Shown: positions 460-44,590 of the stretch, piece after piece | Layout: each line of letters opens with the position of its first letter | Numbering within the stretch: the stretch's first letter is position 1 | Source: Nitrospirales bacterium | GTDB taxonomy: Bacteria > Nitrospirota > Nitrospiria > Nitrospirales > UBA8639 | Assembly: GCA_022828225.1 (NCBI GenBank) | Contig: JAJEJG010000023.1 | Coordinates: forward strand, 45,001-109,000 | Length of the DNA stretch: 64,000 nucleotides | Direction: 5' to 3' | Notes under the pieces: model-generated | Told to the model about the DNA's origin: nothing | Databases searched by the model: none | Seen by the model: only the letters and a program-made list of their open reading frames with translations | Translations under genes and position numbers: made by a program

Positions 460-642
460 GCTATGCCGTGCTATGCTTTGCTATGAAATGCTATGTTTTT
501 GCTATGATGTGCGATACAGTGCTATTTTTGCTATGTTCTTGCTATGAAATTGCGATGTCTTGCTATACTTTTGCTATGTATTTGCTATGATTTGCTATAT
601 TCATGCTATGATTATGCTATGGTTTTGCTATGCCTTGCTATG
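460..642. repeat. Helically phased array of 18 GCTATG-type hexamers
   Basis: GCTATG or a close variant begins at 460, 470, 480, 490, 501, 511, 521, 530, 541, 552, 562, 573, 584, 594, 605, 616, 627 and 637. Thirteen copies are exact, four have one mismatch and the copy at 511 has two. The steps are 9-11 bases with a mean of 10.4, the pitch of B-DNA, so all copies face the same side of the helix. The 3-5 bases between copies vary and are mostly A/T. The array fills the gap between the DHH phosphoesterase stop (669) and the rhomboid start (415). It breaks frame in all readings, so it is not coding. Its function is unknown. Fixed hexamer, variable spacer and constant pitch suggest a binding surface for a protein or intrinsically shaped DNA. 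Confidence 0.95.
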
Positions 643-40591: not shown

Positions 40592-41785
40592 TTAGATGTC
40601 CTGAAATTGCGAGAGCCACTCCTGAAGAGCCTTGTTTTTCTCTGCATAATCTTCAGGAGTCTTACCATCCGCATCTTGCACCCTGAAAAAATTAGGACCG
40701 ACGTTCAGCAAGGCATCGACAACCATAGGATTTTCGTTGGAGTCAGCCGCCTCATGCAGGGGCGTTTTGCCGAATTTATCCTGCGCATTCGGGTCAGCTC
40801 CGGCATTCAGTAAGGTGGTAACGACCTCGGGATTTTCATTGGACTTCGCTGCCCAATGCAGGGGGATCTTGCCAGTATTGGTTCTCGCGTTCGGATCAGC
40901 TCCGGCGTTCAGTAAGACGGTAATGACTGCTGGGTTATCGTTGAACCAAGCCGCCTCATGTAGGGGCGTCTGGCCAAATTTATCCTGCGCATTCGGGTCG
41001 ATCCCAGCATTCAGTAAGGTAGTGACGACCGTGGGATTATTGTTGGACCTAGCTGCCTCATGGAGAGGGGTTTGATTGGATTCATACTTCGCATTCGGGT
41101 CGGCTCCGGCGTTCAGCAAGGCGATGATGACCGCGGGATCTTCATTGAACCGGGCCGCCCGGTGCAGGGGGGGTTCCCCTCTGTCGGTTCGTGCGTTCGG
41201 GTCGGCTCCGGCGTTCAGGAGTGCCATGACGACGAAGGAATTGCTCCTGACCGCCAGATGTAGGGGAGTTTCTTTATCTCGATAATAGACGTTTTCTCGC
41301 GCATTCGGGTCAGCTCCAGCATTGAGCAGGACCATGATGACTGCGGGATTTCTGTTGGACAAAGCCGACTCATGCAAAGGGGTCTGGTCGAATTTGTCCC
41401 GAGCGTTCGGGTCAGCACCAGCGTTCAGGAGCACTGTGATGATGGCAGAATTTTTATTGTGCGCGGCAGCCTCATGCAGAGGAGTCTGGCCGAATTTATC
41501 CTGTACGTTCGGGTCAGCCCCGGCATTCAGCAAAGCAGTGACAACTAAAGGGTTTTCGTTGGTCTTGGCCGCCCAATGCAGGGGGGTGTCACCAGCCCAA
41601 CTATCATAGGTATCTTCGTTCGTTCGCGCGTTTAGGTCAGCCCCGGCTTGCAGACAATCGGTTACGGTCTTCGGCGTGGCGCTTTTGAAAAACTCCTTGG
41701 TGTTCCACTTCTCACAGTCCGCGCCACTGGCTGGCCAAGCCGCTAGTAGGAGGCACAGGCTACAAATCGCCGCGATGCGTTTCAT
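40592..41785 (-). CDS. Exported ankyrin-repeat protein
   Basis: 397 residues from ATG 41785 with AGGAGAA upstream. A signal peptide (cut after ASG near residue 21) is followed by about ten ankyrin repeats of 35-38 residues with the frame TPLHEAA, then NP-VV-LLNAGADPNA. The DNA repeats are close in sequence, indicating recent tandem expansion. The repeats are longer than the 33-residue norm because of an N-E/N-P insertion in the loop. Likely periplasmic or exported protein-binding role; the partner is unknown. Next to it lie several gene fragments. Confidence 0.85.
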   Translation of the reverse strand: MKRIAAICSLCLLLAAWPASGADCEKWNTKEFFKSATPKTVTDCLQAGADLNARTNEDTYDSWAGDTPLHWAAKTNENPLVVTALLNAGADPNVQDKFGQTPLHEAAAHNKNSAIITVLLNAGADPNARDKFDQTPLHESALSNRNPAVIMVLLNAGADPNARENVYYRDKETPLHLAVRSNSFVVMALLNAGADPNARTDRGEPPLHRAARFNEDPAVIIALLNAGADPNAKYESNQTPLHEAARSNNNPTVVTTLLNAGIDPNAQDKFGQTPLHEAAWFNDNPAVITVLLNAGADPNARTNTGKIPLHWAAKSNENPEVVTTLLNAGADPNAQDKFGKTPLHEAADSNENPMVVDALLNVGPNFFRVQDADGKTPEDYAEKNKALQEWLSQFQDI

Positions 41786-44498: not shown

Positions 44499-44590
44499 GA
44501 TTTTTGATTTTGGGTTGCTGATTCTTGATTGTGGATTGTCGATTTCGGATTGCAGAGGAGTGTAGATTGACAATCTGCAATCCGCAATCC
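44499..44590. repeat. Exact 7-bp-period array: GATTNNN then inverted AATC
   Basis: GATT begins at 44499, 44506, 44520, 44527, 44534, 44541 and 44548, with GGTT in the 44513 slot, so eight units repeat every seven bases with three free positions. After a gap, AATC begins at 44572, 44579 and 44586, the same heptamer inverted. GGATTGCAG (44547) and CTGCAATCC (44575) can form a stem. It lies directly upstream of the exported protein at 44494 and between it and larC. Non-coding; resembles the heptameric short tandem repeats known from cyanobacteria and others. Confidence 0.9.

Follow-up and report, generated by a model that had tools for sequence, protein, structure and literature searches.

The TGCTAT array described here is a member of a dispersed, intergenic repeat family that is restricted to one genus. 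Members of this family retain a short oriented word and its helical phase as the intervening DNA drifts, which suggests that the rows are read by a protein contacting one side of the DNA. On this sequence evidence, we lean towards explaining the family as rows of oriented, one-turn sites for a putative DNA-binding protein.

A phased array of eighteen units

In the window (the whole 64,000-nucleotide stretch of DNA analyzed), a phased array of 18 units of the form (T)GCTAT(G), all in a single orientation on the + strand and separated by steps of 9-11 bp, occupies positions 460 to 642. The units start at 460, 470, 480, 490, 501, 511, 521, 530, 541, 552, 562, 573, 584, 594, 605, 616, 627 and 637, and the 17 intervals (10, 10, 10, 11, 10, 10, 9, 11, 11, 10, 11, 11, 10, 11, 11, 11 and 10 bp) sum to 177 bp, with a mean of 10.4. 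An earlier note on this DNA had given the coordinates, unit count, interval total and range of steps correctly. It had also read the array as eighteen copies of GCTATG; eighteen phased units are present, but only 13 of them carry the exact hexamer, with the other five being variants. Five exact units with steps of 10, 10, 10 and 11 bp (460 to 506) are followed by the in-phase variants GCGATA at 511 and GCTATT at 521 (511 to 526), and then by eleven units (530 to 642), eight of which are exact, with GCGATG at 552 and GCTATA at both 562 and 594. A T precedes all 18 units, giving a core of TGC[T/G]AT, and the spacers of 3-5 bp are T-rich and G-poor. GCTATG occurs 33 times on both strands of the whole 64 kb, compared to 12.2 expected by chance and a maximum of 20 in 100 shuffles, and a single strand carries 13 of these 33 occurrences within 183 bp. 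With Tandem Repeats Finder, segments of this array are scored at periods of 11, 21, 32 and 43, with matches of just 69-78%.

The array is located between the start of a rhomboid-family membrane protein gene (2 to 445, - strand, running off the window; PF01694, E 7e-22), with the ATG of this gene 14 bp from the array edge, and the stop codon of a DHH/DHHA1-type phosphoesterase gene (669 to 1505, - strand; PF02272, E 3.7e-5, slightly below the Pfam cut-off), which is 26 bp from the array. Both genes are transcribed leftward. This neighborhood is syntenic in relatives both with and without the array, and in two genomes without it, G009 and G002, the two genes are separated by only a few tens of bases, showing that the window array sits inside an otherwise close gene pair. 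A scan of the window array for promoters and terminators found nothing. In G004, the rhomboid site contains a degenerate yet still phased array.

Several other features were observed. The gap between the rhomboid and DHH genes in G006 (L219) and G001 (L216) is AT-rich and contains several units of other words (CAATT/CAAAT/CATAT; TGC) at approximately 10 bp, stretches that we read as a decayed or alternative phased array. Elsewhere in the window, positions 1655-2295 encode a VapBC-type toxin-antitoxin pair, in which an Rv0623-like antitoxin (PF07704) overlaps a PIN-domain toxin (PF01850); positions 40745-41170 contain approximately four tandem units of 102 bp (34 codons), possibly ankyrin-like repeats within coding sequence; and positions 44499-44552 contain 2.6 copies of a 21-bp tandem repeat (GATTTTTGATTGTGGATTGCC), with a similar string found downstream of the L171 array.

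The arrays are restricted to one genus

The genome containing the window (G000; 2.36 Mb in 24 contigs) contains approximately 16 arrays at unrelated intergenic sites. Using a criterion of at least three TGCTAT words in a row at 10-12 bp, we identified arrays in 10 of 14 genomes of the genus, namely G000, G001, G003, G004, G005, G008, G010, G011, G012 and G021, and in none of the 256 remaining genomes of the class, with the reversed control pattern giving zero matches in any genome of the genus or class scan. In a scan of 84,980 species, rows with mixed 10/11 steps and varied T-rich spacers were found, among the matches listed, in Nitrospira or Nitrospirales bin records; almost all others listed were identical-spacer or constant-step rows, and the remainder were a few three-word rows of the sort expected by chance. 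Viral contigs contain the triple word almost solely in identical-spacer or constant-step repeats, and we rejected a phage or virus origin on this basis. Our literature searches found no report of these TGCTAT repeats. The host genus probably corresponds to Candidatus Nitrosymbion (GTDB 'bin75'), a symbiont of sponges (PMC11812461).

In a three-gene tree, in which the inner branches of the array clade are weakly supported, the arrays are restricted to one 11-genome clade with 100% support; G009, G002 and G007 fall outside this clade and lack arrays. The genomes are mostly draft assemblies. Array number ranges from 0 to about 20 per genome of the genus, and within the clade from none detectable in G006 and one in G010 up to about 20, so an array is not essential in the genus. 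Orthologous arrays are kept at matching sites in up to eight species, with alignable flanking genes. Relatives contain arrays with different spacers, so the array is neither unique to the window nor accompanied by exact spacer copies, the two patterns that the earlier note had taken to speak against a selected helical array.

Steps between units compensate one another

We analyzed step statistics in 56 arrays from seven genomes (the window's own, G001, G003, G008, G010, G012 and G021), which were found using a one-mismatch rule that somewhat exaggerates word conservation, and which share ancestry, so that counts are not independent. These arrays contain 52 steps of 9 bp, 223 of 10 bp, 221 of 11 bp and 32 of 12 bp, with a mean of 10.43 bp. 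Neighboring steps are negatively correlated (lag-1 correlation -0.42; z -8.8, permutation sd 0.047), and the lag-2 correlation is +0.06; for example, a step of 9 is never followed by another 9 and rarely by 10, and a step of 12 is never followed by 11 or 12. The lag-1 value is -0.40 after collapsing to distinct spacer pairs (n = 389), -0.38 with dissimilar spacer pairs (n = 159), and -0.40 with exact words alone (214 triples). The phase is most coherent at a period of 10.40-10.45 bp, where R reaches 0.904; when the same steps are drawn independently, R is 0.812 (sd 0.021, maximum 0.873 in 500). A negative lag-1 could also arise from inheritance of a 10/11 alternation, in which case a strongly positive lag-2 would be expected. 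In the simulated neutral copying models, either lag-2 was between +0.12 and +0.52 or the negative lag-1 disappeared, and a simulated jittered 10.44-bp lattice gave a lag-1 of about -0.5 with a lag-2 near 0. In orthologous arrays, the lag-1 of step changes is of the same sign (-0.38), and is not significant alone (sign-flip p 0.10).

The compensated steps and the pitch of 10.43-10.45 bp, together with a word that is held while spacers drift, mean that selection for one face of the helix, as had been proposed from the window alone, is well supported. Local steps of 9-12 bp are tolerated provided that the overall phase recovers, which disfavors a rigid protein-protein contact.

The word is conserved while the spacers drift

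We compared 21 pairs of orthologous arrays, chosen by a flank divergence of <20%, with the proviso that some alignments may be out of register. Divergence at the successive core positions is 4.6% (T), 1.3% (G), 2.9% (C), 2.9% (T), 2.9% (A) and 0.3% (T), versus 15.3% at the final G, 26% and 19% at the next two bases, 24% in spacers and 13% in flanks. Arrays were defined by a word that does not include the first T, and the conservation of this T is therefore independent and non-circular. These values identify TGCTAT as the recognized core, with the last G nearly free: GCTATG, which had been taken as the fixed word, is shifted by one base from the constrained one, and its final G drifts approximately as the flanking DNA does. 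In a gap-free pair (L164/L212), all differences are confined to spacers. In the closest pair (L159/L176), the words show no conservation beyond that of spacers or flanks, and in L158/L179 word divergence is lower than that of spacers and higher than that of flanks, with the whole array outpacing its flank; because of these two exceptions, our claim of word conservation rests on the pooled set. Spacers are 3-6 bp in mixed lengths across arrays, with 145 different spacers among 530, and 389 of 455 adjacent spacer pairs are distinct. The copying of spacer together with word that defines a simple tandem repeat is found in local stretches alone.

Genomic context

All arrays are intergenic, and occur in both orientations relative to genes. 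Using a simple home-made gene caller, we classed 16 of the gene pairs as divergent, 12 and 8 as co-directional, and 7 as convergent. The neighbors, named by reading their sequences, include xth, a pyruvoyl arginine-decarboxylase type gene, purE/nuoF, accA, thiC, TonB receptors and a transposase, and reading by eye of the proteins flanking the 16 arrays in the window's own genome found housekeeping or unrelated proteins and no partition or stb genes. The position next to a rhomboid gene highlighted in the earlier note is real for the window array, and is not a property of the family, as the approximately 16 arrays adjoin unrelated housekeeping genes in every orientation. Unrelated neighbors speak against one common regulon, and favor a role at the DNA level that does not depend on transcription. 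We set aside a coding reading, as steps of 10 and 11 bp break frame and every array is intergenic. Rfam gave zero matches to the arrays at E up to 1, and the predicted RNA fold is no better than that of shuffles (z 0.86); with array orientation also independent of that of genes, we rejected an RNA-level function. The presence of arrays between all types of gene pair and in both orientations, combined with this ordinary RNA fold, points to a function at the level of DNA. The long unique spacers of a CRISPR array are absent, with all spacers being 3-6 bp. At the pyruvoyl-decarboxylase-like gene (G008:C100, G001:C32 and G011:C60), we also observed that the protein match crosses one or two TGA codons, which may simply mark the gene end.

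Turnover and spread of arrays

Orthologous arrays often differ by indels the size of whole units (9-12, 19-23 or 29-31 bp), and there are also many indels of 1-2 bp. G005 (C41 and C28) contains exact 11-bp tandem copies that include the spacers, and a 20-bp duplication is present within an array of G010. The earlier note had argued against slippage from the variable spacers; these spacers do vary, but slippage also happens, supplying units, with word and phase being maintained by selection. Flanks common to unrelated loci show that arrays are also spread as a cassette: the 3′ flank TTCCGCAAAGCGGGCGG is found behind 21 of 56 arrays (random rate 5e-5), and the 5′ flank AAAGGCTTGT before 10 of the 56. 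We read seven exact copies of the 3′ flank directly, and each one stands right behind an array. An inverted CATAGCA is present at most 80 bp from 10 of the 56 arrays (L168, L173, L180, L191 and six others), and L180 mixes direct and inverted units. We also observed a second dispersed intergenic repeat of approximately 36-45 bp, with a palindromic core (e.g., ACTGGATCCCCGATCGGGGTCGGGGATGACAG), which is common near arrays (L157-L172); examples are L158:3557-3688 and L159:4481-4518, and identity between loci is up to 100%.

Alternative explanations

Selection on the shape of the DNA rather than on a bound sequence, i.e., intrinsic curvature alone, would account for the phase. Using Bolshoy wedge values, we predict a strong bend of approximately 90 degrees per 84 bp, compared to 36 with the phase broken and 23 in flanking DNA; Olson rolls give 23 for the array versus 10 for both controls. 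The actual spacers are predicted to bend more than shuffled ones, and the pitch of 10.44 bp is the planar-curvature value. The arrays thus have the helically phased motif and predicted net bend of phased curved DNA, in line with the curvature suggested in the earlier note. However, many in-phase hexamers bend as much as GCTATG or more: with spacers fixed, its rank among random in-phase hexamers is the 66th percentile in one model and the 37th in the other, yet the core diverges by only 0.3-4.6%. As bending does not single out this word, a fixed word asks for sequence recognition, and we set curvature aside as the sole cause, considering it an unlikely explanation. Cooperative binding, filament nucleation and curvature, the three roles that the earlier note offered, cannot be fully separated from sequence; in our reading, the phase could come from either curvature or one-face binding, with recognition needed for the word. 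We regard as quite unlikely that the arrays are a functionless satellite produced by slippage or unequal exchange of 10/11- or 21-bp units, a view that would fit the exact copies in G005 and G010, the unit-sized indels, the highly variable array number, and the recurrence of some spacer vocabulary between loci. Against it, spacers have diverged by about 24% around a core that has diverged by only 0.3-4.6%, the copying models we tried gave no such step compensation, and simple tandem repeats of this word elsewhere have identical spacers or a constant step.

The unit, a core plus an AT-rich spacer, also has nearly the architecture of a PhoP site (PMC4832192), and rows of such units could be operators at which an OmpR/PhoB-type factor (6-7 bp core, 4-bp AT-rich spacer, head-to-tail subunits) acts on nearby promoters; for example, a conserved block precedes purE, and the array at this gene is upstream of that block. 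This is improbable, as PhoP strictly needs its 4-bp spacer (PMC4832192) and the arrays mix spacers of 3-6 bp, convergent gene pairs with arrays offer no promoter, and the neighbors are unrelated housekeeping genes. The sole OmpR-type regulator located beside an array, a histidine kinase/receiver/winged-helix fusion next to the C7 array, was rejected as the binder, since a close orthologue is missing from four array-rich genomes (G008, G011, G012 and G021). Least probable of all is a non-autonomous mobile repeat (MITE- or REP-like) that is kept by spreading, and whose own recombinase needs the phase. The shared cassette at unrelated loci, with exact 3′ copies seen at arrays only, and the presence or absence of arrays at orthologous sites would be expected of such an element. 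Set against these, the cassette has no visible terminal inverted repeats and is missing from many arrays, units are not palindromic, and word conservation persists at orthologous sites. G000, which ranks among the genomes richest in arrays, has no match to PF01797 (Y1/RAYT transposase); five of the 14 genomes have PF01797 matches, among them G009 and G006, both without a TGCTAT array, and we rejected RAYT-driven spread.

A proposed role for the arrays

We favor, therefore, rows of sites that are read by a protein. Each unit, i.e., TGCTAT in one helical turn with a T-rich spacer, would be an oriented recognition site, and a row of approximately 6-18 units would put these sites on one face of DNA that is probably bent as well. 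A putative sequence-specific protein, most likely of a nucleoid-associated or chromosome-organizing type, would bind the row as a multivalent platform. Tandem duplication and deletion would lead to gain and loss of units, new loci would be seeded by copying of the cassette 5′-AAAGGCTTGT, array, TTCCGCAAAGCGGGCGG-3′, and purifying selection would keep TGCTAT and the cumulative 10.4-bp phase rather than spacer text or exact local step. This protein or scaffold would touch the DNA from one side by contacts that are independent of one another, and may also wrap or bend it; the variation of local steps, with the cumulative phase alone being kept, fits such contacts and not a rigid head-to-tail oligomer such as PhoP, which would be expected to require constant steps. 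We found no binding protein, with the sole neighboring regulator candidate rejected by its distribution. More tentatively, and as a possibility that we rate below an even chance, these arrays could represent a new 'one-turn, one-face' class of chromosomal element, in which the cumulative phase of a short oriented word is selected and a putative scaffold protein, specific to the genus, is loaded at a dozen sites or more, organizing or bending the chromosome of a sponge symbiont.

Evidence that helical phase is under selection usually comes from two or three operator sites. In this family, dozens of natural arrays with hundreds of steps reveal such selection directly, in the form of compensating 9/11 and 10/12 spacings, making the helix-face question measurable from sequence. 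Rows of TGCTAT paired with phase-broken rows are a defined bait for a DNA-binding protein in an uncultured sponge-symbiont lineage, and with the repeat being young (one clade of one genus), its origin and spread can be watched.

Comparison with known systems

One of the closest known systems is stbDR of plasmid R388, which is bound by StbA and consists of two sets of five repeats with a fixed 11-bp pitch beside stbA (PMC3098194). Like the TGCTAT arrays, stbDR is a row of short one-turn direct repeats (9 bp plus 2 nt, giving 11) bound by one protein (PMC3098194), and its word is also similar (TTGCATCAT vs TTGCTATG), which may be chance. Unlike stbDR, the arrays have up to 18 units, mixed 9-12 bp steps and approximately 16 chromosomal sites, and we noticed no stbA-like neighbor at the arrays. 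The parC iterons of the ParMRC partition system, in which two sets of five repeats at one centromere are bound by ParR, likewise consist of short direct repeats, in sets onto which a protein is loaded (PMC4949242). The TGCTAT arrays share the one-turn direct-repeat pitch of partition iterons, and differ from parC in being dispersed, variable and without a partition operon at the arrays examined.

PhoP sites contain 7-bp direct-repeat motifs with a strict 4-bp spacer, the minor groove of which is contacted by the wing, and higher-order tandem binding extends to three and four motifs (PMC4832192). These OmpR/PhoB-family sites resemble our arrays in having an oriented core plus spacer and one unit per turn (PMC4832192), but they are normally promoter motif pairs with strict spacing, whereas the arrays contain up to 18 units with compensated spacing, with all four step lengths from 9 to 12 bp in use, and are also located in convergent regions. 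REP/BIME elements are palindromes in alternating orientation that are tied to RAYT transposases, with a proposed protein-binding role in chromosome organization (PMC2817692). These are also intergenic and found at many loci per genome (PMC2817692), but TGCTAT units are non-palindromic and oriented one way within a row, and their own genome lacks a Y1 transposase match. Phased A-tracts in bacterial genomes share the 10-11 bp periodicity and predicted bending, and have no fixed word (PMC3940949), unlike the specific word conserved here. As palindromes, RAYT, adjacent partition genes and strict spacing are all lacking, we do not file the arrays under any of these families. In our reading, by analogy, TGCTAT arrays would work most like one-turn iterons such as stbDR and parC, spread through the chromosome in the fashion of REP/BIME elements.
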